Positions 228 to 62,578 of a DNA stretch of 64,000 nt are shown here, piece by piece. The position numbers were made by a program, and so were the translations under genes. Numbering within the stretch: the first letter of the stretch is position 1; the number at the start of each line of letters is the position of its first letter. Under the pieces are notes generated by a model. It was not told the origin of the DNA. It worked only from the letters and a program-made list of their open reading frames with translations, and did not search any database. Source of the stretch: Spirochaetales bacterium (GTDB lineage: Bacteria > Spirochaetota > Spirochaetia > DSM-27196 > Alkalispirochaetaceae); assembly GCA_028282545.1 (NCBI GenBank), contig JANQHT010000161.1, forward strand, positions 1 through 64,000, given 5' to 3'.

Positions 228-1493
228 TTACTCGTTCGCCTCGATCAGCATCTCCACAAACTCTTCCGGCGTCGCTTCACCGAGCGCCATCGCACCGAGG
301 GCCTGGCCGAACTCACGAACAACCTCGATCGGGTACTGGCTCTGAAAGTGACCGATCGCAAAGGTCGATTCGCTGGCCACGCGGACAAACTCCTGCTGGA
401 GCGGGTCCGCTTCGCCGCTGAGTTCGTACTTGATCGCAAAGAGCGACCCCGCCTGTTCGCTGATCATCTTCACGTTCTCCGGTTCGGTGAGGAACTGGAG
501 GAACTTGACGACGGCGGCGCGGCGGCGCGGGTCATCGGTATTGCCGGCGGCGAGGTTCGAGAGCAGGAAGCCGATCTGGTGACCGGAGTAGTCGCCGATT
601 TGCGGGGCAGCGGCCAGCTTGGTGACGGCGTGAACCTGAGGCGCGTCGCCGCGGATACGCCCGATGTACCAGGGACCGTTGATAAAGGACGCGGTGTTAC
701 CGGCCATGAAGTGTCCGCCGGAAACGCCGGCGTCGCCGCCGACGGCATCACGCGTCGTATTGCCGTCGCTGTAGAGCTGAAGCAGGTACTCGGCGCCCTC
801 CACGTAGAGCGGGTCCGTGAGGGGGCGATCCCACACGTCGGGTCCGCCCAGGCTGCCCATAATGTGGCTGTACCAGAGCATGCTGGTCCAGGCGTTGGAT
901 CCGCCGGTCATTTGGCTGCCCGGAACCTTACCGGACGCCTTGACGGCGGCGGCCATGGCTTCGAAGTCGTCCCACGAAGCGGGAACGTCGGAGACGCCGG
1001 CAGCGCTCAGGATATCCATGTTGTACCAGATGGGCGTGATACCGACCTCGAAGGGCACCGTTTTGGTTTGTCCGTTGATCGTGCTCTCGTCGATGTAGCT
1101 GCGAACAAAGTCGTCCCCCCAGGAACCCGCCAGTTCATCGGTCAGGTCCAGGAGCAGGTCGCTTTCATAGTACTGGAAGGTGGTAGGATCGGGGTTAAAG
1201 ACAAAGATGTCGGGGGCCCGGCCGCTGGCGAGCTGCGCGTTGATCTTGTCACGGTACCCGTCCGTATCGGGGTTCGGTTCGAGCACAACGCGGATCTCAC
1301 CGGCATTTTCGTTGTTGAACTGTTCGATAAGCGAGGCGATGGGACCCGACTTCGAGTCCTGGCCGACCCAGAAGGTCGGGAAGGTCAACATGATCTCGCC
1401 CGTTGATTCCTCCCCGGTACCGGAGGCGAAAACCCCGATAACGGGAACGATCAGGAAGATGGCGAGGACGAGGGTAGAGACAACTCGTTTCAT
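228..1493 (-). CDS. Extracellular sugar-binding protein, family 1 (ABC importer)
   Basis: A 421-aa periplasmic binding protein of the SBP_bac_1 family that captures a carbohydrate for the permease downstream. It has a hydrophobic signal peptide ending near VFASGTGEE. There is no lipobox cysteine, a pattern common in spirochaete binding proteins. The motif PDIFVFNPD near residue 95 and the stretch around PVSWDDFEAM-like PASWDDFEAM near residue 175 are typical of MalE/MsmE-like proteins. The start ATG is preceded by AAAAGGAG. The gene is divergent from the sulfatase gene, and a ROK-type palindrome (1506-1526) lies just upstream of its ribosome site. No ATPase gene is visible, which is normal where one MsiK-like ATPase serves several importers. 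The ligand is unknown. By regulon membership it should be the substrate of the isomerase/transketolase pathway. Confidence 0.88.
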   Translation of the reverse strand: MKRVVSTLVLAIFLIVPVIGVFASGTGEESTGEIMLTFPTFWVGQDSKSGPIASLIEQFNNENAGEIRVVLEPNPDTDGYRDKINAQLASGRAPDIFVFNPDPTTFQYYESDLLLDLTDELAGSWGDDFVRSYIDESTINGQTKTVPFEVGITPIWYNMDILSAAGVSDVPASWDDFEAMAAAVKASGKVPGSQMTGGSNAWTSMLWYSHIMGSLGGPDVWDRPLTDPLYVEGAEYLLQLYSDGNTTRDAVGGDAGVSGGHFMAGNTASFINGPWYIGRIRGDAPQVHAVTKLAAAPQIGDYSGHQIGFLLSNLAAGNTDDPRRRAAVVKFLQFLTEPENVKMISEQAGSLFAIKYELSGEADPLQQEFVRVASESTFAIGHFQSQYPIEVVREFGQALGAMALGEATPEEFVEMLIEANE

Positions 1494-1645: not shown

Positions 1646-3043
1646 ATGAACATCCTCTACATCCATACCCACGACAGCGGCCGCTTCTTCGATCCCTACG
1701 GCTACGCGGTCGGCACCCCGGCAATCCAGGCGCTTGCGGAACGGGCCACGCTCTTCCGGAACGCCTTCAGCGTCGCACCGACCTGTTCGCCGAGCCGGGC
1801 GGGGCTGCTCACCGGATACAACCCGCACGCAAACGGTATGCTGGGGCTGGCCCACCGCGGGTTTGCTTTGAACGACTATTCCAGGCACATCGTCCACCAA
1901 CTGAATACCGCGGGATATGAAACGGTCCTGAGCGGAATCCAGCACGTGGCTGACCGGGCCGCAAAGATCGGGTACCGGCGTATCCTGGACGGGCTATCCG
2001 GCCACACCGTCGATGAATCGGACACCGCCGAGTTCGATTCGGTCGTCTACGACCGGCGAAGCGCCCGCCTGGCGGCGGAGTTTCTAAAAGCGCGGCGGGG
2101 CGCCCACTCACCCTTCTTTCTCTCGGTGGGCCTCTTTAACACGCACCGGGAGTTTCCCCCGGCCGCGGCGGGCGTGGATCCACGCTACCTGCGATTGCCC
2201 CCGAACGTGGGAGATACGGCTGAAAACCGGGAGGACTTTGCGCGCTTTGTGACATCCGCGCGCGTGGCCGACGGCTGCGTCGGCGAAGTCCTGGAGGCGC
2301 TTGATCGGTCGGGGCTCCGGAAGGAGACCGCCGTCATCTTCACCACGGACCACGGTATCGCCTACCCGGACCACAAGTGTACGCTCTACGACACGGGCAT
2401 CGGCGTGGCTCTGATTATCGATTACCCGGGCAATCCCCGCCGGGGTGAGGTGGTGGACGCACTGGTGTCACATCTGGACATCTACCCGACGCTCTGCGAC
2501 TTGGCTGGATTGGACAAACCGCCGTGGCTCGATGGGGTTTCTCTGCGCCCTCTGTTCGACGGAACCGCCGGCGAAGTCCGCGATGAGGTTTTCGCAGAGG
2601 TCACCTTCCATGCGGCGTACGAACCGATGCGTGCCATTCGAACCCACGGTCACAAGCTCATCCGGCGGTTCGCCACCCCGGACAAACGACAACCGGCAAA
2701 CATCGACGACAGTAGCAGCAAGGCGCAACTGGTCGAGGCGGGACTGGCCCGCCTCCCGACGGAGGAGACGCAACTGTTCGACTTGAACCTCGACCCAGGT
2801 GAGCGCAGAAACCTCGCGGCCGTGCCGGAATACGCCTCAATACGGGACGAACTTGGAGAACGACTAAAACGGTGGATGAAGGAGACGGGGGATCCACTGC
2901 TTTCCGGTCAAGTGGAGCTTCCGGCCGGCGCGTTTGTGAACCGGGACGACGCGGTATCGCCGGCGGAACGGGACTACCTGTACGGACCCGCACCCAGTTG
3001 CAACGACGAACATTCCAAGGACGCACAAAGGACTGAGACATGA
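1646..3043 (+). CDS. Cytosolic sulfatase (type I, formylglycine-dependent)
   Basis: A 465-aa alkaline-phosphatase-superfamily sulfatase that hydrolyses a sulfate ester or sulfamate. The signature C-S-P-S-R followed by AGLLTG starts at Cys47, the residue converted to formylglycine. A second metal-site motif FTTDHG lies near residue 230. The N-terminus MNILYIHTHDSGR starts directly on the first core strand and has no signal peptide, so the enzyme should act in the cytoplasm on an imported small substrate. It resembles the N-sulfoglucosamine sulfohydrolase (SGSH) branch. The ATG follows GGAAAGGTGG. It overlaps the isomerase gene by 4 bp, so both should act on one sugar. No maturase (anSME or FGE) lies in the window. 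In a sulfonate pathway its role is unexplained. It could remove an O-sulfate from a related sugar. Confidence 0.88.
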   Translation: MNILYIHTHDSGRFFDPYGYAVGTPAIQALAERATLFRNAFSVAPTCSPSRAGLLTGYNPHANGMLGLAHRGFALNDYSRHIVHQLNTAGYETVLSGIQHVADRAAKIGYRRILDGLSGHTVDESDTAEFDSVVYDRRSARLAAEFLKARRGAHSPFFLSVGLFNTHREFPPAAAGVDPRYLRLPPNVGDTAENREDFARFVTSARVADGCVGEVLEALDRSGLRKETAVIFTTDHGIAYPDHKCTLYDTGIGVALIIDYPGNPRRGEVVDALVSHLDIYPTLCDLAGLDKPPWLDGVSLRPLFDGTAGEVRDEVFAEVTFHAAYEPMRAIRTHGHKLIRRFATPDKRQPANIDDSSSKAQLVEAGLARLPTEETQLFDLNLDPGERRNLAAVPEYASIRDELGERLKRWMKETGDPLLSGQVELPAGAFVNRDDAVSPAERDYLYGPAPSCNDEHSKDAQRTET

Positions 3044-4461
3044 GCAGCAGATCGACATCGGATAACATGAGCGCGGTCTCCCGCGATGCGGGGATCATCG
3101 TGGACCCGGTGGTAGCCCTGATGGTGATGGGGCGCAAGCGTCCCGGGTTCGATCCCGACTGGGGGGCCCGGATGCGGCAGGCGATCGACGGGGCGATGGC
3201 GGCGCTGCCCTGGAGTGTCGTTACTCCTTCTGAGAATATCGCCGACGAAGCGGAACTGCGCCGCGCGGTGGAGGCGGCCCGGAGCAGCCGCGCCTCCGTC
3301 CTCGTCCTCGTTCAACCGACGATATCGGACGGACGCCTGGCGCCGCTGCTCTCCCGCATGTGGGACCGGCCCCTTGTGTTGTGGGCCACCCCGGAGAAGC
3401 CAACCGGCGCCATGATCAGCGCCAACTCGCTGGTAGGGACGCACGTCATGGCGGCGACGCTCCGACAGTTGGGACATCCCCTGGAAGTCGTCTACGGCGA
3501 CCCCGGCGCGGTGGAAACGGCGGCGGACCTGGAGCGGGCTATTCGCGCGGCACACGCAGCGGGCTCTCTGGTCAACGCAAAGGTAGGCCTCTCGGGGTAT
3601 CACGCCCCGGGGTTTGTCGACTTTCACGCGGACCCGGTCTTCCTCAACGACCGGCTGGGAGCGCAGCTCTTCCATACGGGCACTCCCGAACTGATCAACC
3701 GCGTCAACGGGTACACGGAAAAGGACATCGCCGGCGATCTGTCCGCCTTCGAGGCGCTTGACCTCCCGGGGACCGACCGTTTCCCCACCGGCAACGACGG
3801 GCACGCGGCACGGGCGATGCAGGCCCGTTACTACCGCGCCTTCCGCGACGCCTTTTCAGAGGAGCGATTCGACGCGTTCGCCTTTCGCTGTTGGCCGGAT
3901 CTCCCGAGCGAAACGGGCCATTGGCCCTACTTAGCCCTGGCGCGCCTCATGTCGGAGGGGTTTCCCATCGCGATGGAGGGAGACGTGGACGGCGCGCTCT
4001 GTTCGTTGCTCGCCGAAAGCGCGGGGATCGGCCCCGTATACCTCTCGGACTGGCTGGAACACGATCGCGAGACGATCGCGATCTGGCACACCGGGGCGGC
4101 GCCGTTCCAACTGTGCGAACCCCTTGGGTCGGAGCGGGGACCGCGTCTGGACGTCCAGTTCAACAGCAAACTCCCTACGGTTGTGGAAGCCACCATACGT
4201 CCCGGCCGGGCGCTCACCGCCTTTCGCCTCTGGCGCTTTGACGACACCTACCACATGTGTGCGATCGAGGGCGAGAGCGTCGAACCGCGCCGACACTTGA
4301 TGGCGACGAATGGACTCTTCCGGGTACACAACGTCGACGTTGTCGAGTGGTTTGACGAGATGGTGCAGCAGGGAATGCCGCACCACCTCTGCATAGTTCC
4401 CGGCCACCGCGTCGAACTGCTCCGGCGCGTGGCACGCATGACGGGGTTTGCCTGGGTTTAG
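3040..4461 (+). CDS. L-fucose/L-arabinose isomerase family sugar isomerase
   Basis: A 473-aa protein of the fucose-isomerase-like family (COG2407), which interconverts an aldose and a ketose with a divalent metal. The expected metal ligands are visible: E313 and D315 in the segment AMEGDVDGAL, and the C-terminal histidine motif MPHHLCIVPGH (H448/H449). The two N-terminal Rossmann-like domains cover about residues 20-180. It starts at an ATG overlapping the sulfatase stop (ATGA) and preceded by AAAGGA. A second in-frame ATG at 3067 is possible. Fucose-isomerase-like enzymes include, as recalled from the literature, sulfoquinovose isomerases that make 6-deoxy-6-sulfofructose. With the co-regulated transketolase and RpiB-like genes that is the leading guess. 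L-fucose or another deoxy or desulfated hexose are alternatives. Confidence 0.78.
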   Translation: MSSRSTSDNMSAVSRDAGIIVDPVVALMVMGRKRPGFDPDWGARMRQAIDGAMAALPWSVVTPSENIADEAELRRAVEAARSSRASVLVLVQPTISDGRLAPLLSRMWDRPLVLWATPEKPTGAMISANSLVGTHVMAATLRQLGHPLEVVYGDPGAVETAADLERAIRAAHAAGSLVNAKVGLSGYHAPGFVDFHADPVFLNDRLGAQLFHTGTPELINRVNGYTEKDIAGDLSAFEALDLPGTDRFPTGNDGHAARAMQARYYRAFRDAFSEERFDAFAFRCWPDLPSETGHWPYLALARLMSEGFPIAMEGDVDGALCSLLAESAGIGPVYLSDWLEHDRETIAIWHTGAAPFQLCEPLGSERGPRLDVQFNSKLPTVVEATIRPGRALTAFRLWRFDDTYHMCAIEGESVEPRRHLMATNGLFRVHNVDVVEWFDEMVQQGMPHHLCIVPGHRVELLRRVARMTGFAWV

Positions 4462-4535
4462 GCGACACGTTCTTCCCGATTTCGATTTTCACAGCGACAT
4501 CACCCGCGTTTTGCTCACGTTTGTCGAAATTTGTG

Positions 4536-4564
4536 TTGACAGATCGTTATTCTTCGGTTAGCAT
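4536..4564 (+). promoter_or_regulatory. Sigma-70 promoter of the SorC-type regulator and PTS operon
   Basis: TTGACA (4536-4541) is a perfect -35 box, followed 17 bp later by TAGCAT (4559-4564). Transcription would start near 4571, inside the first of two palindromic operators. The leader would be very short and has no Shine-Dalgarno sequence. Confidence 0.6.
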
Positions 4565-4568
4565 ATTA

Positions 4569-4602
4569 TTCACATGTGTGAATTATGATTCACACATGTG
4601 AA
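4569..4602 (+). promoter_or_regulatory. Tandem palindromic operators within a 46-bp near-perfect palindrome
   Basis: Two copies of TTCACA-NN-TGTGAA lie at 4569-4582 and 4589-4602, with centres 20 bp (about two helical turns) apart on one helix face. The whole segment 4563-4608 is an inverted repeat broken only at its centre. SorC-family regulators act as tetramers, so two dimer sites at this spacing suit cooperative autoregulation. The second site overlaps the annotated GTG start. Confidence 0.75.
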
Positions 4603-8080: not shown

Positions 8081-9379
8081 ATGGATCTGCACAAATCACT
8101 GCTCGAATATGAAAAGCAAGGGAAAAACGTACGCGTCGGCCTCGTCGGCGCGGGACAGATGGGCGAGGGGCTCGTCTGCCAGATGGAACTCATGAACGCA
8201 ATGCGGGCCGTGGCCGTGGCCGACGTGCTCCCGGGCCGTGCGAAGGAAGCGTTCTTGTCTGCGAACGTGGAGAGTCGTCTCATCGTCGAAACGGAGGATC
8301 CCGCCGTTGCTTCCCAGGCTGTGGAGGACGGCAAGCGTATCGCGACGACGAATCCCGCTCTTCTCTCGCTCATGGAAACGACGGACATCGTCGTGGAAGC
8401 GACCGGTGTCCCGGAAGTCGGAGCGCGGATCGCCTTCGACGCAATTCTCAATCGCAAGCACGTGCTGCAGATGAACGTCGAGACCGACGCGACCGTCGGC
8501 TACATCCTCAGGAAAATGGCAAATAGCGCCGGCGTCGTGTACACGTTGACCGCGGGGGACGAGCCGGGTTCGACTATGGAGCTCTTTGACTTCGCGCAAA
8601 CCCTCGGTTTCGAGGTCGTGTGTGCCGGTAAAGGAAAAAACAACCCTCTCGACCGGAGCGGAAACCCCGAGTCACTCGCCGAAACGGCCAAAGCGCAGCA
8701 GATGAATCCGAAGATGCTCGCCTCCTTCGTGGACGGCACCAAGACGATGGTAGAGATGACGTCATTCGGAAACGCGGTCGGTTTTGTTCCGGACGTCACC
8801 GGGATGCACGGTCCGGAGGTGACCCCCAAGACGATTGCCCAGGTATTTTGCCCCAAGAAGGACGGCGGCGTTCTTACCAAGAGCGGCGTCGTCGAATACG
8901 GATTGGGGATCGCCCCGGGGGTGTTTGTCGTCATCACGACCGATCACCCGAAAATCGCCCGGGACCTCACCTACCTGAGCATGGGTCCGGGCCCGTACTG
9001 GGCGCTCTACCGCCCCTACCACCTGACAAGCCTGGAAACGCCCATATCGATCCTCAAGGCGGTGCTCAAAAACGAATCCACGGTTGCGACGGAAATTCCC
9101 CCCGTGGCGGACACGGTCACCTATGCAAAGCGAGATTTGAAATCGGGCGAGAAGATCGACTACCTCGGCGGGTTCACCGTGTACGGAATGATTGAACGAT
9201 CCGACGCGGCGGATCGGCAAAACCTGCTCCCTCTGGGGTTGGCACCGGGATGCACGGTAAAAAACGATATTCGTGCCGGCGATCCGATCACGTACGATGA
9301 CGTCGAACTCGTGTCCGATTCGACAATCCTCGAGTTGCGACGCCTGCAGGACCAGGCGATGGGACGGAAGATGAGATGA
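8081..9379 (+). CDS. NAD(P)-dependent oxidoreductase with C-terminal SAF domain (COG4091)
   Basis: A 432-aa protein. Residues 16-150 are a Rossmann domain (VRVGLVGAGQMGEGL), related to the NAD-binding part of homoserine dehydrogenase. The middle region contains DEPGSTMELFDFAQTLGF. Residues about 350-425 form a SAF domain (YAKRDLKSGEKIDYLGG). The family (COG4091) is often found beside glucitol-type PTS genes, but I know no firmly assigned reaction. Its place between IIB/IIA and HPr makes it a catabolic dehydrogenase candidate for the imported polyol phosphate or its product. ATG behind GGGGAGAAACG. It overlaps the HPr gene by 4 bp. Confidence 0.82.
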   Translation: MDLHKSLLEYEKQGKNVRVGLVGAGQMGEGLVCQMELMNAMRAVAVADVLPGRAKEAFLSANVESRLIVETEDPAVASQAVEDGKRIATTNPALLSLMETTDIVVEATGVPEVGARIAFDAILNRKHVLQMNVETDATVGYILRKMANSAGVVYTLTAGDEPGSTMELFDFAQTLGFEVVCAGKGKNNPLDRSGNPESLAETAKAQQMNPKMLASFVDGTKTMVEMTSFGNAVGFVPDVTGMHGPEVTPKTIAQVFCPKKDGGVLTKSGVVEYGLGIAPGVFVVITTDHPKIARDLTYLSMGPGPYWALYRPYHLTSLETPISILKAVLKNESTVATEIPPVADTVTYAKRDLKSGEKIDYLGGFTVYGMIERSDAADRQNLLPLGLAPGCTVKNDIRAGDPITYDDVELVSDSTILELRRLQDQAMGRKMR

Positions 9380-9654
9380 CGAGCACCACGCTGACGGTCC
9401 AACACGCCGTGGGGCTCCACGCGCGCCCGGCGTCGCGATTTGTGAAACTCGCAAAAAGCTTCGTGAGCACTATCCGAGTGAGAAACATCACCCGCGCCGG
9501 GGAGGAAGTTGATGCCAAAAGCCTCGTGAAGGTCATCAAGATAGCTGCGGCCCAGAACCACGAAATTGCCGTCACTGCCGACGGTGGGGACGAAGAGGCC
9601 GCGATTGCTGCGATAGAGGCGTTTATCCGCGAGGTGCCAGAGGAAGAGCGGTGA
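9376..9654 (+). CDS. ptsH: Phosphocarrier protein HPr
   Basis: A 92-aa HPr. The active-site motif GLHARPAS places the phospho-histidine at H15. The regulatory-serine region reads VDAKSLVKV (S49), so HPr-kinase control is possible but not shown. It sits between the COG4091 gene and enzyme I, with 4-bp overlaps on both sides, so it is an integral part of the polyol PTS operon and not of a distant ptsHI locus. It carries phosphate from enzyme I to the IIA protein. Confidence 0.95.
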   Translation: MTSTTLTVQHAVGLHARPASRFVKLAKSFVSTIRVRNITRAGEEVDAKSLVKVIKIAAAQNHEIAVTADGGDEEAAIAAIEAFIREVPEEER

Positions 9655-11369
9655 GAACCTTCAAGGGAATCGCCGCGAGCCGAGGAATCGCCGTTGGAAC
9701 GATTGCCGTTGCGGAGGCGGAGCACGTTCAGATTCCGCAGTACGCCGTCGCCGACGTTGAGGCGGAGGTCGAACGGTACGAGGCGTGTCGGACCGCCGTC
9801 GATGCCGCCTTACAGACGCTCGCCGCGGATATCGCGAAGAGAGCGGGCGTCGAACACGGTGAGATCTTCGAGATTCAGCGGGAGTTTGTACGCGACCCGA
9901 GCTACGGCGACGAGATTGCCTCCCGTATCTCCTCGCAAAAGATCAATGCCGAGCAGGCGGTATCCCTGGTGAGCGCCGAACTGACCGCGGAGTTTAGCGA
10001 GATAGGCGACGAGTACTTCGCGCAGCGGGCCGCGGATATCCGCGACCTCTCGGACCGGATGGTTCGCGTCCTCATGGGCGTCCAGCGGCGAGGACCAGAT
10101 GTGGAGACGGCGCGAATAGTGCTTGCCCACGATCTATCGCCGAGCGATACCGCATCGATGGATCTGGAACAAACGCTTGCTCTCTGTACGGAGGTGGGCG
10201 GCAAGACGTCTCACACCGCTATTCTCTCCCGCAGTCTCGGCATTCCGTCGATCGTCGGACTGGGATCGGTGCCGGTAGAAACGGGAACGCGAGTGATCGT
10301 GGACGCGATACGGGGAGAACTCATCGTCGATCCCGATGACGAAACGGTCGCTGCGTACGGAAAACGGTCCCAGGCGTTCGCGGAGCGCAAAGAGCGACTC
10401 ATGAAAGGGGCGCACGATCCGGCGCGGACCGTGGACGGTGTTGATCTCGTCGTGGCGGCGAACATCGGAAACGTCTCGGACGCGCAGTTCGCAAAGGAGC
10501 ACGGTGCAGAGGGTTCCGGACTGCTCCGAACGGAGTTCCTCTTCCTCGACCGCGATGATTTGCCGGACGAAGAGGAGCAGTACGAGACGTATCGCCAGAT
10601 CGTGGACGTTTTCCCGGATCAAGCGGTGATCATTCGAACGCTTGACGTGGGCGGGGACAAGGAACTCCCGGCGATCGAGATGGCCCCCGAACAGAACCCC
10701 TTCCTGGGGCGCCGCGCCCTCCGTCTCGCCTTTTCGGACCCGGATCGCCTCCTGATGCCGCAGCTCCGAGCCGCGCTGCGCGCGGGGGTCGATCGATCGG
10801 TCAAACTGATGTTTCCCATGGTGGGGAGCGTGGCCGAGGTCGTGCGCATTCGAGAGTACATAAAACGGGCGCGGCGCGAGTTGACCAACGCGTCCATACC
10901 GTTTGCCGCCGATATCGAGATCGGTGTGATGATCGAAATTCCTTCGGCGGCGTTGATAGCTCGCCACCTGGCAACCTACGTCGATTTTTTCAGCATTGGA
11001 ACGAACGATCTCACGCAGTACACCCTCGCAGTGGATCGAACCAACGAAACGGTGGCGCACCTGGCGGACTATTTCCACCCGGCCGTAGTCGGCCTCATCG
11101 CCACCGTTGTGGATGGAGCGCGCGCGCACGGGCGCTGGGTGGGCATGTGTGGAGAGATGGCAGGTGACGAACTCGCCATTCCGCTCCTGATCGGTCTTGG
11201 ACTCTCGGAGTTGAGCATGGCCGGAACCGTCGTACCCGACGCCAAGGACGTGATACGCAACCTCGATGCATCCAAGTGCAAGGCGCTGGCTGACCGCGTA
11301 TTGGCCGCGCCGACAGCTGCGGAAGCGCGCGGTCTGTGCGAAACGTTCGCCCAAACGGTTCATCGATAG
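9651..11369 (+). CDS. ptsI: PTS enzyme I (phosphoenolpyruvate-protein phosphotransferase)
   Basis: A full-length enzyme I of 572 aa. It autophosphorylates from PEP and loads HPr. Domains: an N-terminal HPr-binding and phospho-His domain (residues 1-225), with the motif GGKTSHTAILSRSLGIPSIVG carrying H188, and a C-terminal PEP-binding TIM barrel (residues 255-572) with LLRTEFLF, DVGGDKELPA, FFSIGTNDLTQYTLAVDR and MCGEMAGD. The GTG start overlaps the HPr stop (GTGA). Having a complete IIA-IIB-IIC-HPr-EI chain in one operon is unusual. It may be the only sugar-phosphorylating PTS of the organism. Confidence 0.96.
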   Translation: MRTFKGIAASRGIAVGTIAVAEAEHVQIPQYAVADVEAEVERYEACRTAVDAALQTLAADIAKRAGVEHGEIFEIQREFVRDPSYGDEIASRISSQKINAEQAVSLVSAELTAEFSEIGDEYFAQRAADIRDLSDRMVRVLMGVQRRGPDVETARIVLAHDLSPSDTASMDLEQTLALCTEVGGKTSHTAILSRSLGIPSIVGLGSVPVETGTRVIVDAIRGELIVDPDDETVAAYGKRSQAFAERKERLMKGAHDPARTVDGVDLVVAANIGNVSDAQFAKEHGAEGSGLLRTEFLFLDRDDLPDEEEQYETYRQIVDVFPDQAVIIRTLDVGGDKELPAIEMAPEQNPFLGRRALRLAFSDPDRLLMPQLRAALRAGVDRSVKLMFPMVGSVAEVVRIREYIKRARRELTNASIPFAADIEIGVMIEIPSAALIARHLATYVDFFSIGTNDLTQYTLAVDRTNETVAHLADYFHPAVVGLIATVVDGARAHGRWVGMCGEMAGDELAIPLLIGLGLSELSMAGTVVPDAKDVIRNLDASKCKALADRVLAAPTAAEARGLCETFAQTVHR

Positions 11370-11382
11370 CGGGATCGGATCG

Positions 11383-12720
11383 GTGTCTGAACGACGCTTC
11401 GAATCGCTTCTGGCTGCGCTTCCGGACACCGACGCATTTTTCCAGGGCGGTACCGATGAGCTTCCGGATGTAATGGCGGAGTGGTTTCCCGGACGAGAGC
11501 CGTCCATCGTCGCCGACGAAAACACGTGGCTCGCGGCCGGTGAAAAGGTTCACGACGCGTTTGTCGCTGCAGGAGCACGGGTTGCCACTCCGTTCCGATT
11601 CCCGGGAACAAAGGTCCTTGAACCCGAGTACCGTCACGTGGAGACGCTACGCAACGCCTGGCGATCGAACGATACGATTCCCGTGGCCGTCGGCGCCGGC
11701 ACGATCAATGATCTGGTAAAACGCGCCGCCTTCGAGAGCAGCCGCCCCTACGTCGTCGTCGCGACCGCCGCGAGCATGGACGGCATCACATCATTCGGGG
11801 CCGCCCTTGTACGGAATGGATTAAAACAGACCATGTCGTGCCCCGCTCCACGGATGGTACTCGCGGATGTTTCAGTCATCAAGAACGCGCCACCGGCGAT
11901 GACGGCAGCGGGTTACGCAGACCTCGCGAGTGAACTCACCGCCGGCGCGGACTGGTTACTCGCCGATGCCGCAGGTGCCGAGCCGATTCACGAGAAAAGC
12001 TGGGCCATGATCCAGCCGCACCTCGAACAATGGTTGACAACCCCCGGACGTCTCGCCGCCGGCGATGAAACGGCATACAGGGAACTGTTCGACGGCTTGT
12101 GCATGAACGGTTTTGCGATGCAATGCATGCAGAGTTCCCGGCCTGCCTCGGGTGCCGAGCACCTCTTTAGCCACGTGTGGGAAATGGAACACCTGCAACG
12201 CGAAGGAATGCCCGTTTCACACGGTTTCAAGGTCGCTATCGGCACTCTGATCGCGACAGCGGTGTACGAGGAAGTCCTCGGAGCGGGAGTGACGCGGTTT
12301 GATCCGGAGCAAGCCGTACGTCACCGCGAACCGTGGGAAGCGCGGGCGGAGCGGGTCAAGGCGGCGTATCGCGGGTCACCGCTCATCGAGCCGATCCTCG
12401 CGATTTGTGCCGAGAAGTACGGGAGTGATGCCGCTCTTCGCGCTCGGGTTGAGCGGATCAACGAAGCGTGGCCTGTACTTTGTGAGCGGCTGTCGGGACA
12501 GATCGTGCCCTTTCGCGCGCTGCGGTCACTGTTCATCGAGGCGGGCGTGCCGGTGGAACCGGGACAGATCTCGCTCGATCTTCGGCGAGTGCGGGACACC
12601 TTCAACCGCGCCCACATGATCCGTACTCGTTACACCGTACTTGATTTCCTCTACGACACCGGATTGTTCGAACCGGTGGCAGACGCCGTCTGTTCGCCCG
12701 GCGCCTACTTCTCGGAATAG
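11383..12720 (+). CDS. AraM/glycerol-1-phosphate dehydrogenase family polyol-phosphate dehydrogenase
   Basis: A 445-aa protein of the iron-ADH-like group that includes sn-glycerol-1-phosphate dehydrogenase (AraM/EgsA). Visible features are VGAGTINDLVK for the nucleotide, ATAASMDGITSFGA, and metal-ligand histidines in SGAEHLFSHVWEMEH and MPVSHGFK. The GTG at 11383 is chosen because the longer open frame would run into the enzyme I gene. As the last gene of the PTS operon, in the absence of an SrlD-type dehydrogenase, it is a good candidate for oxidising the imported polyol phosphate to a ketose phosphate. That role is inferred. A true glycerol-1-phosphate role in lipid synthesis is less likely in this setting. 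Confidence 0.82.
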   Translation: MSERRFESLLAALPDTDAFFQGGTDELPDVMAEWFPGREPSIVADENTWLAAGEKVHDAFVAAGARVATPFRFPGTKVLEPEYRHVETLRNAWRSNDTIPVAVGAGTINDLVKRAAFESSRPYVVVATAASMDGITSFGAALVRNGLKQTMSCPAPRMVLADVSVIKNAPPAMTAAGYADLASELTAGADWLLADAAGAEPIHEKSWAMIQPHLEQWLTTPGRLAAGDETAYRELFDGLCMNGFAMQCMQSSRPASGAEHLFSHVWEMEHLQREGMPVSHGFKVAIGTLIATAVYEEVLGAGVTRFDPEQAVRHREPWEARAERVKAAYRGSPLIEPILAICAEKYGSDAALRARVERINEAWPVLCERLSGQIVPFRALRSLFIEAGVPVEPGQISLDLRRVRDTFNRAHMIRTRYTVLDFLYDTGLFEPVADAVCSPGAYFSE

Positions 12721-26321: not shown

Positions 26322-27467
26322 TTACGCCGCCGGATCGGTCAGTCCAAAGAAGTGCTGGAAGACCAGGTCAGTGGCACCGTAACACGCTTCTACCGGATCA
26401 TACACGGATGAGATAACGCGCACTCCCGGAAGCGCTGCCCGCGCTGCGGACCCTAGGACCTCCGCGATAATCGGAAAACGCGATATCAGTAGCACCGCCT
26501 CCGGGTGGAAAATATGGTTCAGGTTGGTCACCGCCGTGGCAAGCATCCGGCACGCGTCGGTGAGCACCCGGGACACCTCATCGCAGGAAAGACGGCCCTG
26601 CACTTCCTCCCAGGAACGAACACCAAAGGTCTCGCTCAGAACGGCGAGCATGGGCTGCTCCGCCACCACCGACTCCAGGGTGTGCGCCGCCGGGCCCAGC
26701 GTGGTCCGACCGATTTCAAGCGCCGTATCGGTCCCGTTGATGAAGAGGCGGCCATGGTTCACCAGGGCACCGCCGACACCGGACCGTACAAGGATCGCCA
26801 GGAGGCTCTTTTCGTTCCGAGCGGCACCGTAGTGGTACGCGCTCGCGGCAATTACCGAGGCGTTGTTGTGGACATAGACCGGAACGGCGAAACGATCCTC
26901 GAAGTGCTCCTTCATGGCGTATCCGGCGAGCCCGCCGATACGCGCGTATTCGACGACCCGACCGGTAACGGTGTTCACCACACCGGGGGAGGCAATGCCG
27001 ATCCCCATCATCCGCTCCGGGGGAAGCGAAACCGCGCCGGTCGCGCCGCGAATGAGGGCTTCGATGGTCTCAAGAACCTGAGCCCGGTGCACTCCCGGCG
27101 GAAACGCCTCCGTTGCCTGGTGGATAACGTGATTGGCGAAATCGACGGCGATCACCGACGCCGCCAAGCTCGAGAAATCCACGCCCACGGCGTAGTGTGC
27201 GTCCGGGTTCACGCAGTAGAAACTGGGACGACGCCCCTTACGTTCCATCGTTTCGCCGTTTGGTTCTTCACCGCCCTCCGCGGGGCACTGCCGGATATAC
27301 CCCTCCTCCTCCAGCTTGGCGAATATCCGGAACACCGTGGGAGCCTTGAGCCCCGTTTCCTGCACCACCTGTGACTGCGCCGCCGTGCCGATACGAAAGA
27401 TGATGTTGAGTACGAGTTTCTCGTTTCGAATTCGCACGTCGTCGCCGCGCAATGGTGTTCGGTTCAT
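26322..27467 (-). CDS. ROK-family transcriptional repressor without the zinc motif
   Basis: A 381-aa ROK regulator. Residues 8-60 form a winged HTH (GTAAQSQVVQETGLKAPTVF) and residues 85-380 form the sugar-kinase-like effector domain (AVGVDFSSLAASVIAVDFAN and MGIGIASPGVVNT). The usual ROK motif of His plus a CxCGxxGC cysteine cluster is absent: the matching stretch reads ALEIGRTTLGPAAHTLESVV. The gene is divergent from the transketolase operon. Its own promoter carries a 21-bp palindrome of the set also found before the sulfatase and ABC importer genes, so it probably represses all four units and itself. The effector is presumably the pathway sugar. Confidence 0.92.
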   Translation of the reverse strand: MNRTPLRGDDVRIRNEKLVLNIIFRIGTAAQSQVVQETGLKAPTVFRIFAKLEEEGYIRQCPAEGGEEPNGETMERKGRRPSFYCVNPDAHYAVGVDFSSLAASVIAVDFANHVIHQATEAFPPGVHRAQVLETIEALIRGATGAVSLPPERMMGIGIASPGVVNTVTGRVVEYARIGGLAGYAMKEHFEDRFAVPVYVHNNASVIAASAYHYGAARNEKSLLAILVRSGVGGALVNHGRLFINGTDTALEIGRTTLGPAAHTLESVVAEQPMLAVLSETFGVRSWEEVQGRLSCDEVSRVLTDACRMLATAVTNLNHIFHPEAVLLISRFPIIAEVLGSAARAALPGVRVISSVYDPVEACYGATDLVFQHFFGLTDPAA

Positions 27468-27634: not shown

Positions 27635-28501
27635 ATGAATTCGGAGGAACTTCGAACACTCCAGCGGAAAGCGATCGAGATTCGCCGCGTGACGCTGGAC
27701 GAGATCGCCCACCTTGGTGTTGGACACGTGGGCGGGTCCATGTCGGTTGTCGAGGTGCTGGTTCTCCTCTACTACAAGGTGTTGAAGATTGATCCGGCCG
27801 ACCCCGCGTGGGAGGGGCGAGACAAGTTCGTGATGTCCAAGGGGCACGCGGGGCCTTCCCTCTACGCGATCCTGGCGGACCGGGGGTTCTTCGACCGTTC
27901 CTGGCTGCACACGTTGAACGTGGGCGGCACCAGCCTGCCGAGCCACTGCGATCGGACACGAACACCGGGGATCGACATGTCTACCGGTTCACTGGGACAG
28001 GGTCTGTCGGTTGCGGTCGGGATGGCCCTGGGCCACCGAATGCAGGGCCTGCCGGGACGGGTATACGCGCTCGTTGGCGATGGGGACACCAACGAGGGGC
28101 AGACCTGGGAGGCGGCGATGTCCGCGGGCATGTTCGGCCTCTCCAATCTGGTGGCGTTTACCGACTACAACAGGATGCAGATCGACGGCCCCAGTGAGGA
28201 GATCATGTCGCTGGTGGACCTCGCCGGGAGATGGAAAACGTTCGGGTGGGACGTTCAGCAGGTGGACGGTCATGACCTGTCGGCTATCGACGAGGCTGTG
28301 AAAGCCGCGGTAGCTGCGCAAAACGCCCGCCCCCGCCCAGCGATGATCATCCTGGAGACGGTCAAGGGCAAGGGAATCAGTTTCGCCGAAGGCGACTACA
28401 AGAATCACAATATGCCCGTTTCCAGGGACCAGGCGGCGGAAGCGGATCGTATCCTGGCGGCGCGGCTGGAAGCACTGGAGACCCAGGGGGTGACGACGTG
28501 A
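27635..28501 (+). CDS. Transketolase, N-terminal (ThDP-binding) subunit, sulfo-TK candidate
   Basis: A 288-aa subunit of a split transketolase. Thiamine-diphosphate motif GDGDTNEGQTWEA with the following N in AFTDYNRMQIDG, histidines in GVGHVGGS and SKGHAG, and MSTGSLGQGLS near residue 112. It transfers a two-carbon ketol unit together with the next gene product. All six genes of this operon are coupled, and a ROK operator precedes them, so this is a catabolic enzyme and not the housekeeping transketolase. In the known sulfo-TK pathway a split enzyme cuts 6-deoxy-6-sulfofructose and then 4-deoxy-4-sulfoerythrulose. That assignment is inferred from the neighbours. Start ATG behind a weak site in the leader. 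Confidence 0.9.
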   Translation: MNSEELRTLQRKAIEIRRVTLDEIAHLGVGHVGGSMSVVEVLVLLYYKVLKIDPADPAWEGRDKFVMSKGHAGPSLYAILADRGFFDRSWLHTLNVGGTSLPSHCDRTRTPGIDMSTGSLGQGLSVAVGMALGHRMQGLPGRVYALVGDGDTNEGQTWEAAMSAGMFGLSNLVAFTDYNRMQIDGPSEEIMSLVDLAGRWKTFGWDVQQVDGHDLSAIDEAVKAAVAAQNARPRPAMIILETVKGKGISFAEGDYKNHNMPVSRDQAAEADRILAARLEALETQGVTT

Positions 28502-29496
28502 CGTTTGTAGCGCCCCGTGCACTGGCCACGGCGGGAGCGGACGCTCCGGAAATGCGCGCGGTATACTCGCAGACGTTGATGGACCTCGCCGCGGAAGACC
28601 CCAGGATCGTGGTCATCGACGCGGACCTGGCAAGAGCCAACGCAACGGACAAATTCAGAGACGCCTACCCGGAACGGCACGTCGATGTGGGCGTGGCCGA
28701 GGCAAACATGGTTGGGATCGCTGCGGGTCTCTCGACCACCGGTATGATTCCCTTTCCAGGCACGTTCAGCTGTTTCGCGGGCCGCCGTGTGTTTGACCAG
28801 TTCTTCATCTCTGCGGCGTACGCCAAGCTCAACGTGAAACTCACCGGGAGCGATCCTGGCGTCGCCGCCACCTACAACGGCGGAACGCACATGGCCTTTG
28901 AGGACATCGGCGTGATGCGTACGGTGCCGGGTCTCACCATCTACGAACCGAGCGACCCGGTGACGCTCAGGGCACTCCTGCGCGAATCGGCCGCAACGTA
29001 CGGAAGCAGCTACCTCCGCCTCCACCGAAAGTACATCGCTCCGATGTACGACGAGTCATTCGAGGCGGAACTTGGAAAAGGTATCGTGGTGACCGAAGGA
29101 AGCGATGTGACCCTCATTGCGACCGGTGCCGTGATGGTTCCCGAGGCTATCACCGCGGCGGAGACCCTCGAGGCGAGCGGTATCAACGCCGCGGTGATCG
29201 ACATGCACACGGTCAAACCAATTGACAGGGAACTCGTTGTCCGTTTCGCCCGGGCAACCGGTGCAATCGTCACCTGCGAGAATCACCAGGTAAACAGCGG
29301 TCTGGGGGCGGCGGTAGCGGAAGTTCTCGTGGAAGAGTGGCCCGTTCCGATGCGACGCATCGGTGTGCACGACGAGTTCGGTGAGGTGGGCACGTTGGAC
29401 TACCTAAAAGAGCGCTATGGACTCACCGCACAATCGATCGTTGCCGCGGCGGAAGCGGTGATCGAGCAGAAGAGAACGATGGAGAGAGCACAATGA
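28498..29496 (+). CDS. Transketolase, C-terminal (pyrimidine-binding) subunit, sulfo-TK candidate
   Basis: A 332-aa subunit with the pyrimidine-binding domain (residues 15-190), carrying the activating glutamate in DVGVAEANMVGIAAG, and the C-terminal transketolase domain (residues 200-325; GSDVTLIATGAVM and VIDMHTVKPID). GTG start overlapping the N-subunit stop. It forms an alpha2beta2 enzyme with the preceding protein. The paralogous pair at 55918-57716 has the same split, so the two modules can be compared for substrate-pocket differences. Confidence 0.9.
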   Translation: MTFVAPRALATAGADAPEMRAVYSQTLMDLAAEDPRIVVIDADLARANATDKFRDAYPERHVDVGVAEANMVGIAAGLSTTGMIPFPGTFSCFAGRRVFDQFFISAAYAKLNVKLTGSDPGVAATYNGGTHMAFEDIGVMRTVPGLTIYEPSDPVTLRALLRESAATYGSSYLRLHRKYIAPMYDESFEAELGKGIVVTEGSDVTLIATGAVMVPEAITAAETLEASGINAAVIDMHTVKPIDRELVVRFARATGAIVTCENHQVNSGLGAAVAEVLVEEWPVPMRRIGVHDEFGEVGTLDYLKERYGLTAQSIVAAAEAVIEQKRTMERAQ

Positions 29497-29978
29497 ACAA
29501 GCGGGTTGTAGCGATAGCCAGTGACAAGTCCGGCTTCCCCCTGAAGGCGGCGGTTGTGGATTACCTGCAGGATCGCGGAGATATCGAGGTCCGCGACTTT
29601 GGCCTGGGCAGCCTGGACGAGAACGAGCCCTACGACGGACAGGCCCCCAAGGTTGCACGCATGGTTCAACGCGGTGAAACCGATCGGGGCATCCTCATCT
29701 GCGGCACCGGCCAGGGCATGGCGATTGTCGCCAACAAGTTTCGGGGCGTATACGCCGTGGTGGCGGACACCGTCTTTGCCGCGGAGCGGGGGCGTATCAT
29801 CAACAACGCAAACGTCCTTACCATGGGCGGTTGGATCACCGCACCGCGGCTCGGGATTGAGATCGTTGACGCCTGGCTCGCCGTCGAGTTCACGCAGAAG
29901 ATGGAGGATCGCGCCGAGTGGCTCAAGGCCGCGTACGGGCGCGTTCAGACGATCGAAGCGTCGAACTTCGAGACGTAG
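29493..29978 (+). CDS. RpiB/LacAB-family isomerase with altered active site
   Basis: A 161-aa sugar isomerase of the ribose-5-phosphate isomerase B fold. The catalytic-cysteine loop ILICGTGQGMAIVANKF (C70) and the NANVL motif are kept. Compared with E. coli RpiB (from memory), the ring-opening histidine (H99) is Ile103, the DH pair near the N-terminus is D11-K12, and the phosphate-binding R-H near the C-terminus is replaced by K-M. Such changes fit a substrate that cannot form a ring and carries no phosphate, such as 4-deoxy-4-sulfoerythrose in the sulfo-TK route, where an RpiB-family enzyme does this step. The ATG overlaps the transketolase stop. A GTG-started acyl-CoA synthetase gene follows 17 bp on. 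Confidence 0.85.
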   Translation: MNKRVVAIASDKSGFPLKAAVVDYLQDRGDIEVRDFGLGSLDENEPYDGQAPKVARMVQRGETDRGILICGTGQGMAIVANKFRGVYAVVADTVFAAERGRIINNANVLTMGGWITAPRLGIEIVDAWLAVEFTQKMEDRAEWLKAAYGRVQTIEASNFET

Positions 29979-29995: not shown

Positions 29996-31165
29996 GTGAA
30001 ACTCTTTGAGTACCAGGCAAAACGGGTTTTTACCGAGGCGGGCATTACCGTACCGCGGTCCACGCTGGTGGAAACATCGGGGCCCGCCCGAGCCGCGGTC
30101 ACGGCAGCGGTGGCAGACGCCGTGACCGCCTACAACGACGCGGCGGTCATCAAGGCGCAGGTTCTCATGGGAGGCCGTGGAAAACGCGGCCTCGTACGAA
30201 AGGCGACCGCGGCGGACGCCGCGGAAACGACGGAGGCGATCCTCGATGCGGACGTTCCCGTACCGTCGCTCTTGGTGGAAGAACTCGTTGCGGCCGAACG
30301 CGAACTCTACCTGGCGATAACGATCGACGCCCCGGGGTCAAAGGCACTCGTTCTGGCCTCTGCCGAGGGCGGTATCGATATCGAGGAACTCGCGGCGACG
30401 CGGCCGGAAGCGATCGTCCGGTTTCCCGTGGATCTTCGGCGGGGGCTCCTCGGATACGAGGCGCGGTCGATCGCCTACCAAATGGGGCTGGAGGGCCGCG
30501 ATGCAAAGGGCGTCGCCTCCGTCCTCATATCACTGTGGCGCGTCTTTCGCGAACGCGACGCCGAGCTGGTAGAGATCAATCCGCTCTTTGTAACGGCCGA
30601 CGGCGTTGTTGCCGGTGACGGCAAGGTATCGATCGACGACAACAGCCTCTTCCGGCAGCCGGGCTACGCCCCCACTCGCGATCACTTCGAAAGCGACGCC
30701 GAGTTCGAGGCGGCCCGGGAGGGGATCCCCTACCTCCAGTTCGACGGCGACATCTCGCTTATGTGCGCCGGTGCGGGCCTCACGACAACGGTGTTTGACC
30801 TAGTTCACTACGAGGGTGGCACGGTGGCCAACTACCTCGAGTTCGGCGGCCCCAACTATCGGCGGGCAAAACGGGCGATGGAACTGTGCCTCCGGAACGA
30901 GAGCGCCGTCATTCTCATCGTCACCTTCGGTACGATCGCCCGGGCGGACGTGATGGCGGAGGGCGTCGTTGAAGCGATCCGGGAACTCAAACCGGACCGT
31001 CCCATCGTGACCTGTATCCGCGGAACCAACGAGGAGGGTGCCGTAGAGACACTCAAGGCCGCGGGGATCGAGCCGCTCTTCGATACCGAGGAGGCGGTCC
31101 GCCGCGCCGTGGCGATCGCGGCCGAGCGAGGCGGCGCTGCCGGGCTCTCCGGAGGTGCGTCGTGA
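29996..31165 (+). CDS. ADP-forming acyl-CoA synthetase, beta subunit (SucC-like)
   Basis: A 389-aa protein with an ATP-grasp domain (MKLFEYQAKRVF..., then MGGRGKRGLV) and a C-terminal CoA-ligase domain (LMCAGAGLTTTVFDL, NYLEFGG and IVTFGTIARADVMAEG). The GTG start is chosen because GCGGAGG precedes it and family alignment begins there. Length equals E. coli SucC. It lies in a catabolic operon and not beside TCA-cycle genes. Its likely task is to make ATP or GTP from an acyl-CoA. In the sulfoacetate variant of sulfo-TK a SucCD-like pair turns sulfoacetyl-CoA into sulfoacetate. The acyl group is inferred, not seen. Confidence 0.85.
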   Translation: MKLFEYQAKRVFTEAGITVPRSTLVETSGPARAAVTAAVADAVTAYNDAAVIKAQVLMGGRGKRGLVRKATAADAAETTEAILDADVPVPSLLVEELVAAERELYLAITIDAPGSKALVLASAEGGIDIEELAATRPEAIVRFPVDLRRGLLGYEARSIAYQMGLEGRDAKGVASVLISLWRVFRERDAELVEINPLFVTADGVVAGDGKVSIDDNSLFRQPGYAPTRDHFESDAEFEAAREGIPYLQFDGDISLMCAGAGLTTTVFDLVHYEGGTVANYLEFGGPNYRRAKRAMELCLRNESAVILIVTFGTIARADVMAEGVVEAIRELKPDRPIVTCIRGTNEEGAVETLKAAGIEPLFDTEEAVRRAVAIAAERGGAAGLSGGAS

Positions 31166-32058
31166 GCGTATTCGTCGACACCGACACGCGTATCGTCGTG
31201 CAAGGCGCCACCGGCAAGGAGGGGAGCTTCTGGACCAACCACATGATCGAGATGGGGGCTTCCGTCGTTGCCGGCGTAACACCCGGCAAGGAGGGCCAAC
31301 GCGTCCACGGGGTGCCCGTCTATCACACCGTCGCCCGCGCCCTGGAGCGCCACCGGGCGGACGCGGCGATGCTCTTTGTCCCGCCCCGTTTCACCAAGGA
31401 GGCGGTCTTCGAAGCACTCGACGGGGGTATCAAGACGATCGTCACCATCGCCGACGGAATCCCGCTCCACGACCAGGTGGAGATCCGCGCCGCGGCGCGG
31501 GGCAAAGGTGCCCGCGTCGTCGGCGGCAACACCTCCGGCGTGATCTCGCCGGGTAGGTCGATGATGGGGATTTTCCCCTATTGGATCGAACGCGTATACA
31601 AACCGGGCCGCATCGGCGTCATGACGCGCAGCGGCTCCCTCACGAACGAGGTTACCTCCATGGTGGTTCGCGCCGGGTTCGGCGTCTCGAGCCTGATCGG
31701 CGTAGGCGGGGACCCGGTACCGGGGACGCGCTTTGCAGAGATGCTGCCGGACTACGAGGCGGACCCCGGGACGGACGCCGTGGTGGTAATCGGTGAGCTT
31801 GGAGGAACCATGGAAGAGGAGTGCGCCCAGGCGATCACCTCCGGTGTATACACCAAACCGCTGGTTGCCTTTATCGGCGGACGAACGGCGCCGAAAGGCA
31901 AGCGGATGGGGCACGCCGGTGCCATCGTCACCGGGGGAACGGGATCTGTGGAAGAGAAGGTGCGCGCCCTCGAGGCCGCGGGCGCCTCCGTGGCGGACCG
32001 CCCCAGCCAGGTGGGAACGCTCCTCGCCGCTGCCCTGGAGGAGCACCGCCGTGGGTAG
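31162..32058 (+). CDS. ADP-forming acyl-CoA synthetase, alpha subunit (SucD-like)
   Basis: A 298-aa subunit. CoA-binding Rossmann domain (VVQGATGKEGSFWT), phosphorylated histidine in KRMGHAGA (H251) and the partner glutamate in IGELGG (E212). The loop that reads GPNCPG in succinyl-CoA synthetases is GGNTSG (residues 121-126), so the cysteine and proline at the acyl/CoA site are lost. This points to an acid other than succinate. GTG start overlapping the beta-subunit stop. It overlaps the transporter gene by 8 bp. Confidence 0.87.
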   Translation: MSVFVDTDTRIVVQGATGKEGSFWTNHMIEMGASVVAGVTPGKEGQRVHGVPVYHTVARALERHRADAAMLFVPPRFTKEAVFEALDGGIKTIVTIADGIPLHDQVEIRAAARGKGARVVGGNTSGVISPGRSMMGIFPYWIERVYKPGRIGVMTRSGSLTNEVTSMVVRAGFGVSSLIGVGGDPVPGTRFAEMLPDYEADPGTDAVVVIGELGGTMEEECAQAITSGVYTKPLVAFIGGRTAPKGKRMGHAGAIVTGGTGSVEEKVRALEAAGASVADRPSQVGTLLAAALEEHRRG

Positions 32059-33562
32059 TAATCCGACCGGGGGCGTGTCTGCGCCCGGCTCCGCCCCCGC
32101 ACCATCACCCAAACGGGAGCTCTCCGACCGCGCACGATGGCTCGTCCTCATCGCCGCCCTAACGGTTGCCTTCCTGGGGCGCCTCCTTCCCCTGCCGGAA
32201 GCGGCCCGCACAATCGGAACGGTGACACTCACCCCCACCGGGCAGGCAGCGATGGGGGTCCTGCTCTTTGCGCTGATCCTCTGGATGACCGAGGCGATCC
32301 CCTTCCACATCACGGGCCTCCTGGGGGTCTTTCTACTGGCGCTCTTCCGCGTGGATTCGTTCAAGGAGGTAGTGTCCGTCGGGTTCGGGAACCACATCTT
32401 CATCTTCTTTGTGGGCGTCCTGATCCTCTCGAGTTTTATCACCCGCTCCGGCCTGGGCAATCGAATTTCCGTGTTCCTGCTTTCCAGGACGGGAAACTCT
32501 ACAGCCGTCATCATCCTTGGATTCCTCGTGGTGGGGACGCTGCTTTCGATGTGGATCACCAACACCGCCGTCGCCGCAATGCTCATGCCGCTCGGCGTGG
32601 CCATCCTCCGCGAAGAGGGCGTCACGCCGAAAGAGAGCAACTTCGGTCGCGCCCTGATGATCGCCTGTGCATGGGGTCCCATCATCGGGGGCATCATGGC
32701 GCCCTCCGGTGCCGGACCCAATCCGTTGGCGATCGGATTTCTCAAGGAGATGGCCGGCATCGATCTGACCTTTGTGGGCTGGATGACCTACGGCGTCCCG
32801 GCGGGGCTTCTGATCCTCGTTCCAACGTGGCTGGTGCTGATGCTCTTCTTCAGACCGGAGATCACGCACCTCACCAAGACCAGGGAAGAGCTGCGCCAGG
32901 ACTACGAACGCCTGCCCACGATGGGCCGGGTAGAACGGGTTACGCTCGTGATCTTTCTGCTCACCGTGACGCTCTGGCTAACCACGCCCCTCCTGGAACG
33001 CGCCCTTGGAATCGCCATCCCGATCTCCATGCCCGTCCTGCTCACGGGTAGTCTCTTCTTCTTCCCCGGCATCGGCCGGATCCCCTGGAAGGAGGTGGAA
33101 GAGGAGATGAGCTGGAGCAGCATCGTCCTGATCGTCTCCGGCATATCCCTGGGCATGATGCTCTACCGGACGGGAGCCGCCGGGTGGATGGCCGTCGCCT
33201 TTCTGGGCGGGATCGGTACGATGCCGGCCTTTGTGCAGGTCCTTCTTGTGGTCGTCATCGTGAGCTTTCTCAAGATCTTCCTCTCGAGCAATACCGTCAC
33301 GGCCACGATCATCATACCGATCATGATCACCCTGGCGGATTCTACGGGCATCGCGCCCCTGTCAATCACAGTGCCGGCGGCGCTCACCACCAGCATGGCC
33401 TTTATCCTGGTAACGAGCACGCCCACAAACGTGATCCCCTATTCGGCGGGGTACTTCTCAATCAAGGATATGGCGGTAGCGGGGACGGTCATGACACTCG
33501 TAGCGGCACCAATCGTCGCGGCGGTGATCTTCGTCGTGGGGCGCTTCACCGGTATCTACTGA
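32051..33562 (+). CDS. DASS (SLC13-type) sodium/anion transporter
   Basis: A 503-aa membrane protein with about twelve spans. Both divalent-anion:sodium symporter motifs are present: MWITNTAVAAMLMPL near residue 170 and FLSSNTVTATIIIP near residue 410, followed by TSTPTNVIPYS. A GTG behind TGGAGGAG is taken as the start. The longer open frame would overlap the synthetase gene in full. Family members move sulfate, sulfonates, succinate and other dicarboxylates. As the last gene of the pathway operon it could export the acid end product (for example sulfoacetate) or import a substrate. The convergent kinase gene ends 15 bp away. Confidence 0.88.
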   Translation: MGSNPTGGVSAPGSAPAPSPKRELSDRARWLVLIAALTVAFLGRLLPLPEAARTIGTVTLTPTGQAAMGVLLFALILWMTEAIPFHITGLLGVFLLALFRVDSFKEVVSVGFGNHIFIFFVGVLILSSFITRSGLGNRISVFLLSRTGNSTAVIILGFLVVGTLLSMWITNTAVAAMLMPLGVAILREEGVTPKESNFGRALMIACAWGPIIGGIMAPSGAGPNPLAIGFLKEMAGIDLTFVGWMTYGVPAGLLILVPTWLVLMLFFRPEITHLTKTREELRQDYERLPTMGRVERVTLVIFLLTVTLWLTTPLLERALGIAIPISMPVLLTGSLFFFPGIGRIPWKEVEEEMSWSSIVLIVSGISLGMMLYRTGAAGWMAVAFLGGIGTMPAFVQVLLVVVIVSFLKIFLSSNTVTATIIIPIMITLADSTGIAPLSITVPAALTTSMAFILVTSTPTNVIPYSAGYFSIKDMAVAGTVMTLVAAPIVAAVIFVVGRFTGIY

Positions 33563-57716: not shown

Positions 57717-57747
57717 GTCGGGTAGCGGCGATTTCTCGACACGAAAC

Positions 57748-57776
57748 GTTGTCGCCCCGGGGCGACAACTTTTTTT
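57748..57776 (+). terminator. Intrinsic terminator of the SDR-transketolase operon
   Basis: A perfect 11-bp stem (GTTGTCGCCCC with its complement, 57748-57769) followed by seven T residues. The T-run is only on this strand, so it does not serve the convergent TRAP operon. Confidence 0.92.
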
Positions 57777-57810
57777 CGCCGCCGCCGCCAACGACCTGTA
57801 GGCCCGGCTT

Positions 57811-59094: not shown

Positions 59095-59098
59095 GCAG

Positions 59099-60625: not shown

Positions 60626-60644
60626 GTGTCAAATTCCCGTTTTG

Positions 60645-61655: not shown

Positions 61656-61700
61656 ACTCCATCTCCTTTTGCCGACTACGTCGGTATTGTGTTGTATGTG

Positions 61701-61718
61701 ATCACCGAAGACGGTGAT
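61701..61718 (-). terminator. Intercistronic stem-loop between FCD regulator and dctP
   Basis: ATCACCG and CGGTGAT form a 7-bp stem with a 4-nt loop and no following U-run. It could set mRNA stability so that the binding protein is made in excess of the regulator. Confidence 0.35.
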
Positions 61719-61724
61719 ACATCC

Positions 61725-62429: not shown

Positions 62430-62439
62430 AAAAACCTTC

Positions 62440-62487: not shown

Positions 62488-62578
62488 CAAGAATTTTGAA
62501 TGGGTCGTGAACAAACGCCGCGGCAGCCAGGTGGCGGTCGGTATAATCGGCGTCCCTTCGTACCCGGGAGGTTTCAAA

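Follow-up and report, generated by a model that had tools for sequence, protein, structure and literature searches.

The sulfoglycolytic transketolase (sulfo-TK) pathway, its isomerase SqwI and a sulfoacetate variant with SqwD and SqwKL have been described previously, with Spirochaetes among the carriers and an oxidative branch of the pathway reported in this group (PMC12890257, PMC11659671), and sulfoquinovose-degrading Sphaerochaetaceae are known to transcribe sqwG, sqwH and sqwI (PMC13219744). Sulfoquinovose, the sugar of the plant sulfolipid, is among the very abundant organosulfur compounds, and SqwI provides a required step when it is broken down anaerobically. Within the RpiB family, Arg113 of M. 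tuberculosis RpiB is a phosphate ligand (PMC3755991), and EryI is a D-erythrose-4-phosphate isomerase (PMC5992420). In C. immitis RpiB, Ser109 and Arg105 share in phosphate binding, and its authors pointed out that the ring-opening His is lost and suspected that the substrates have shorter chains (PMC3212906). Considering that both the SqwI enzyme and the sulfo-TK pathway are already known, the gene described here is an additional family member, and the useful part of the finding is its residue signature. No analysis of the SqwI active site was found in the open literature searched, in which this signature appears to be undescribed.

Gene neighborhood of sqwI and its predicted substrate

One gene in the window (the whole stretch of 64,000 nucleotides that was analyzed) is very probably sqwI of a sulfo-TK operon, an assignment made by homology (Table 1). 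It starts with ATG, shares 4 bp with the 3' end of the preceding transketolase gene and lies directly beside the split transketolase SqwGH, the operon order being sqwG-sqwH-sqwI-sqwK-sqwL-transporter. The product matches Pfam LacAB_rpiB (E = 3.3e-39), and the closest solved structure to its AlphaFold2 model (monomer, mean pLDDT 92) is RpiB 3he8 (E 2.8e-15, TM 0.78-0.85), with Thermotoga RpiB 1o1x giving TM 0.80/0.89. Among the PDB sequence matches to the window protein none was named SqwI, and a tblastn search of plasmid records returned only matches below 60% identity, the top one (~41%) being annotated rpiB.

The best 80 loci of a scan of named genomes, mainly from Spirochaetota and Chloroflexota and none labeled Bacillota, encode homologues with 58-74% identity and share the gene order, which rules out a chance ORF or a wrong frame for sqwI. 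Together with the window sequence they form a single clade with 100/100 support and a long stem. Neighbors over these 81 loci (80 plus the window) include SqwH (77), SqwG (74), SqwK (41), SauS (38), SftI/SqvD (34) and YihQ (32), and in 66 of the 77 homologous loci with enough flank the split transketolase genes end <400 bp before sqwI. Downstream, the 71 loci with enough flank carry sulfoacetaldehyde dehydrogenase and SqwK (34), SqwK alone (5) or an iron alcohol dehydrogenase (18), the last being the arrangement expected for the isethionate branch. A complete cluster in a closed genome (L037 in G012) comprises an ABC transporter, an SftI-family isomerase, the split transketolase, SqwI, a SauS-like acylating sulfoacetaldehyde dehydrogenase, SqwKL, DASS, TauE and YihQ; the SftI/SqvD homologue of the window is 61% identical to the copy in this cluster.

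Table 1. Coordinates of the sqwI locus, its active-site codons and associated genes in the window
Feature	Position	Strand	Basis or remark
sqwI, RpiB-family 4-deoxy-4-sulfoerythrose isomerase (predicted)	29493..29978	+	161 aa
Lys12 codon, at site of phosphate-contacting His10 in E. coli RpiB	29526..29528	+	alignment, conservation
Catalytic Cys70 codon (E. coli Cys66)	29700..29702	+	HMMER alignment, conservation
Arg99 codon, proposed new anion contact	29787..29789	+	alignments; Arg105 in C. immitis
Ile103 codon, replaces ring-opening His99 of E. coli RpiB	29799..29801	+	alignments, conservation
Trp114 codon, at the site of E. coli Arg110 (Arg113 in M. tuberculosis RpiB, a phosphate ligand)	29832..29834	+	alignment
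Codons 136-140 (KMEDR), RpiB R-H phosphate/base pair region	29898..29912	+	alignments, conservation
sqwG, transketolase N-terminal half	27635..28501	+	profile match, neighborhoods
sqwH, transketolase C-terminal half	28498..29496	+	profile match, neighborhoods
sqwK, SucC-like ADP-forming acyl-CoA ligase beta subunit, start codon probably GTG	29996..31165	+	
sqwL, SucD-like acyl-CoA ligase alpha subunit	31162..32058	+	
DASS-family anion transporter, possible sulfoacetate exporter, approximate start	32132..33562	+	
ROK-family regulator, divergent, upstream of operon	26322..27467	-	adjoins operon in relatives too
SftI/SqvD sulfoquinovose isomerase homologue	3040..4461	+	NF048012, 136 bits, cut-off 700 not reached
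ABC transporter sugar-binding protein	228..1493	-	53% identity to counterpart in L037 sulfo-TK cluster

The sulfo-TK steps themselves have been published, and we place them on this operon by homology. With 6-deoxy-6-sulfofructose as donor and glyceraldehyde 3-phosphate as acceptor, SqwGH would transfer a C2 unit and leave 4-deoxy-4-sulfoerythrose, which SqwI would convert to 4-deoxy-4-sulfoerythrulose. A second cleavage by SqwGH would then release sulfoacetaldehyde, from which SqwD and SqwKL would form sulfoacetate and ATP. The partner genes are dispersed, with SqwKL in the operon, the SftI homologue elsewhere in the window and a SauS-like SqwD on another contig (C151), SqwD being absent from the operon itself. 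On C151 (L035), intact SauS-like, sqwK, sqwL and DASS genes follow a decayed second sqwI (4493-4945), which is frameshifted and has lost the catalytic Cys loop. Because the window operon has intact SqwGHI but no SqwD, the two loci seem complementary, and the functional pathway appears to be split over them. The SauS-like gene that lies outside the window with the second sqwK, sqwL and DASS genes matches NF047625 (527 bits), and a YihQ homologue scores above its cut-off.

The initial annotation had proposed 4-deoxy-4-sulfoerythrose as the substrate, and the homologues of SqwGH, SqwKL, SauS, SftI and YihQ found around sqwI genes agree with this. The assignment is supported mainly by the operon context and by relatives. 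There is only a slim chance that what the operon degrades does not derive from sulfoquinovose but is a different sulfosugar or a related acyclic acid with four carbons: a formylglycine-type sulfatase gene overlaps the SftI homologue of the window, which itself diverges from the curated family (136 bits), but in relatives homologues of YihQ, SftI and SauS are repeatedly found near sqwI, and spirochaete sqwGHI genes are transcribed in sulfoquinovose degradation (PMC13219744).

Several other genes of the window deserve mention. The sulfatase (PF00884; 1646-3043, + strand) carries the formylglycine motif CSPSR but no obvious signal peptide. Its gene shares 4 bp with the start of the SftI/SqvD homologue, which suggests that the two are co-translated, although sulfoquinovose is a sulfonate rather than a sulfate ester. 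A DRL/SAF-domain oxidoreductase (8081-9379, + strand) is followed downstream by a PTS enzyme I-like protein (9651-11369) and an iron-ADH/glycerol-1-phosphate dehydrogenase-like protein (11266-12720). A second cluster, extending from 55179-63751 in the window on to contig position 67960 (L201), contains an SDR, a split transketolase, a TRAP transporter, a zinc ADH, an iron ADH (SarD-like, 286 bits), a SauS-like acylating aldehyde dehydrogenase and an HMGL-like protein, and possibly represents another C2 or sulfonate pathway.

Active-site residues

Residues were paired by HMMER alignment with E. coli RpiB (1nn4; 2vvr is its H99N mutant), and counts refer to the 80 homologues plus the window protein, from Spirochaetota, Chloroflexota and Verrucomicrobiota. 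The cysteine loop is intact, as the initial annotation had stated: Cys70, in a CGTG loop, pairs with E. coli Cys66 and is conserved in every readable one of the 81 sequences. Asp11 and Thr72 are also common to SqwI and RpiB. The replacement of the ring-opening His by Ile103, likewise claimed there, was recovered in the alignment with E. coli His99, and the position is Ile in 53/81, Val in 28/81 and His in 0/81. A substitute His for ring opening, at this position or another, is ruled out, the 161-aa window protein containing zero histidines.

It had further been claimed that the phosphate-binding residues are lost, with Asp-His changed to Asp-Lys near the N-terminus and Arg-His to Lys-Met near the C-terminus. 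The first change holds for the window protein, whose D11-K12 pairs with D9-H10 of E. coli RpiB, but not as a family trait, because position 12 is Leu in 67 sequences, Lys in 10 and Arg in 4, K12 belonging to the subgroup of the window; Lys12 as a family-wide sulfonate ligand is ruled out by the same counts. As for the second, RpiB R133-H134 pairs with K136-M137 (HMMER) or with M137-E138 (MAFFT, one gap shifted), so that the Arg-His pair is absent under both alignments but Lys-Met appears under only one; M137 and E138 are invariant. Judging from the alignments, the phosphate site is remodeled and not merely lost: the Arg-His pair has gone and Arg110 has given way to an invariant Trp114, but position 140 is Arg or Lys in 81/81 sequences and Arg99 is new. 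Both the change to Trp114 and the gain of Arg99 had been overlooked.

Beyond Cys70, the mechanism is one that we infer. Cys70 itself may shift a proton between C2 and C1 via a cis-enediolate in the manner of RpiB. 4-Deoxy-4-sulfoerythrose carries its sulfonate on C4 and hence has no C4 hydroxyl for furanose closure, so that a ring-opening acid would be unnecessary in SqwI, and Ile or Val might occupy the space vacated by His99. The anion would be met by a remodeled site consisting of Arg99, the retained basic residue 140 and, where RpiB has Arg, Trp114, as deduced from the alignment and a monomer model of an active site that in RpiB lies between two subunits. Glu138, which is invariant, may take over the O1/O2 proton shuttling that His134 performs.

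Loss of the ring-opening His and non-cyclizing substrates

Position 99 is Arg in 79 and Lys in 2 of the SqwI sequences, whereas RpiB has Leu, Met, Tyr or a comparable residue there. Arg is also found there in 9/9 isomerases that have Ser at position 103 (the Ser103 group), including C. immitis RpiB and Brucella 5ifz. Close plasmid homologues of the latter sit in ery-type operons (L204, L206), beside genes for a carbohydrate kinase, a glycerol-3-phosphate dehydrogenase and a triose-phosphate isomerase homologue. In 137 sequences the coupling of positions 99 and 103 is perfect, the His being absent from all 90 that have Arg/Lys and the Arg from all 47 that have His. On the tree, however, this comes down to no more than one or two independent changes, for which no significance can be claimed.

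Furanose closure is impossible for erythrose 4-phosphate too, so that loss of the His would track a non-cyclizing C4 substrate with or without phosphate. Because EryI-type isomerases lack this His and still use a phosphate substrate, its loss alone is not indicative of a sulfonate. In the earlier suggestion that a substrate with neither ring nor phosphate explains all changes, the argument from non-cyclization is sound, but only the operon identifies the substrate as a sulfonate. Considering that the tree holds only one or two losses and that SqwI and the Ser103 group as one clade were not rejected (AU test, p = 0.62), the tie between His loss and a non-cyclizing C4 substrate would be a pattern and not a statistical proof. 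It offers a testable rule, namely that an RpiB-type fold drops a catalytic residue once its substrate no longer forms a ring. It may be that loss of the His, coupled to the gain of an Arg one helical turn before it (four positions), generally marks RpiB-family isomerases of non-cyclizing C4 substrates, and that SqwI, whether descended from an erythrose-4-phosphate isomerase or convergent with one, later reshaped its anion site for sulfonate (Trp114, Met137, Glu138); we regard the case for and against this proposal as evenly balanced.

It appears very unlikely that the window protein is instead of the EryI/DerI type and isomerizes D-erythrose 4-phosphate or D-erythrulose 4-phosphate, which are also non-cyclizing C4 compounds. 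The two types have in common the Arg99/non-His103 pair and the missing His12, a joint clade is compatible with the AU test, and there is a weak match to NF051858 (108 bits against a cut-off of 240). However, SqwI forms a separate clade on a long stem and has neither the R-S motif nor the Arg114 found in EryI, sqwI operons contain SqwGH, SqwKL and SauS and not erythritol kinase or dehydrogenase genes, and a separate Ser103 isomerase is encoded in a kinase/aldolase locus of the same genome. An ordinary ribose-5-phosphate isomerase B with odd residues is the least probable reading, since, although the fold is shared and identity to RpiB is ~40%, His99, Arg110, Arg133 and His134 are all substituted, the H99N change lowers kcat 26-fold in the E. 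coli enzyme and the Leishmania H102N enzyme is inactive (PMC4783025), and RpiA is encoded in the same genome. This rpiA gene is truncated at a contig end, and its product is predicted to be what covers ribose 5-phosphate isomerization.

Two further kinds of RpiB-family gene were observed in this genome. The Ser103-group isomerase (L002 1468-1920, contig C1), with Pro at 12 and Arg at 99, lies in a locus with DhaK/DhaL-like and aldolase genes and is likely a tetrulose-phosphate isomerase. An RpiB-like protein encoded between aldehyde dehydrogenase and DeoC-like genes on contig C37 (L001 1435-1944) has Asp for the catalytic Cys and Ala for Thr72 but keeps His103, and the RpiB-like proteins of L181 and L182 show the same residues.

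Comparison with known systems

The SqwI signature distinguishes this enzyme from RpiB, with which automatic annotation confuses it (the window SqwI scores as an RpiB-family protein), and sulfo-TK pathways may thus be recognizable from one gene. Compared by description and gene context, the window SqwI resembles the published SqwI of Clostridium sp. MSTE9 and of the sulfoacetate variant in Acholeplasma in its position by SqwGH, its SqwKL branch and its RpiB fold, and the operon differs from the published sulfo-TK system in lacking SqwD. EryI/DerI isomerases (Brucella 5ifz homologues; Coccidioides 3qd5/3sdw) are similar in the lost His, the Arg gained four residues before it and a non-cyclizing C4 substrate, but they have Ser at 103 where SqwI has Ile/Val in 81/81, a C-terminal R-S motif, a phosphate substrate and another operon, of the erythritol/threitol-type ery kind (L204, L206) and not sulfo-TK. 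RpiB of E. coli, C. thermocellum and T. maritima shares with SqwI the fold, the Cys loop, Asp11 and Thr72, whereas His99, His10, Arg110 and the R133-H134 pair are replaced in SqwI and Arg99 is gained. LacAB galactose-6-phosphate isomerase belongs to the same family and also uses Cys-based isomerization, although the window SqwI scores far below the LacA and LacB profile cut-offs; LacAB is a heteromer with a ring-opening His96 (LacA) and three Arg on the phosphate (PMC3755991), whereas SqwI is encoded by a single gene and has no such His.
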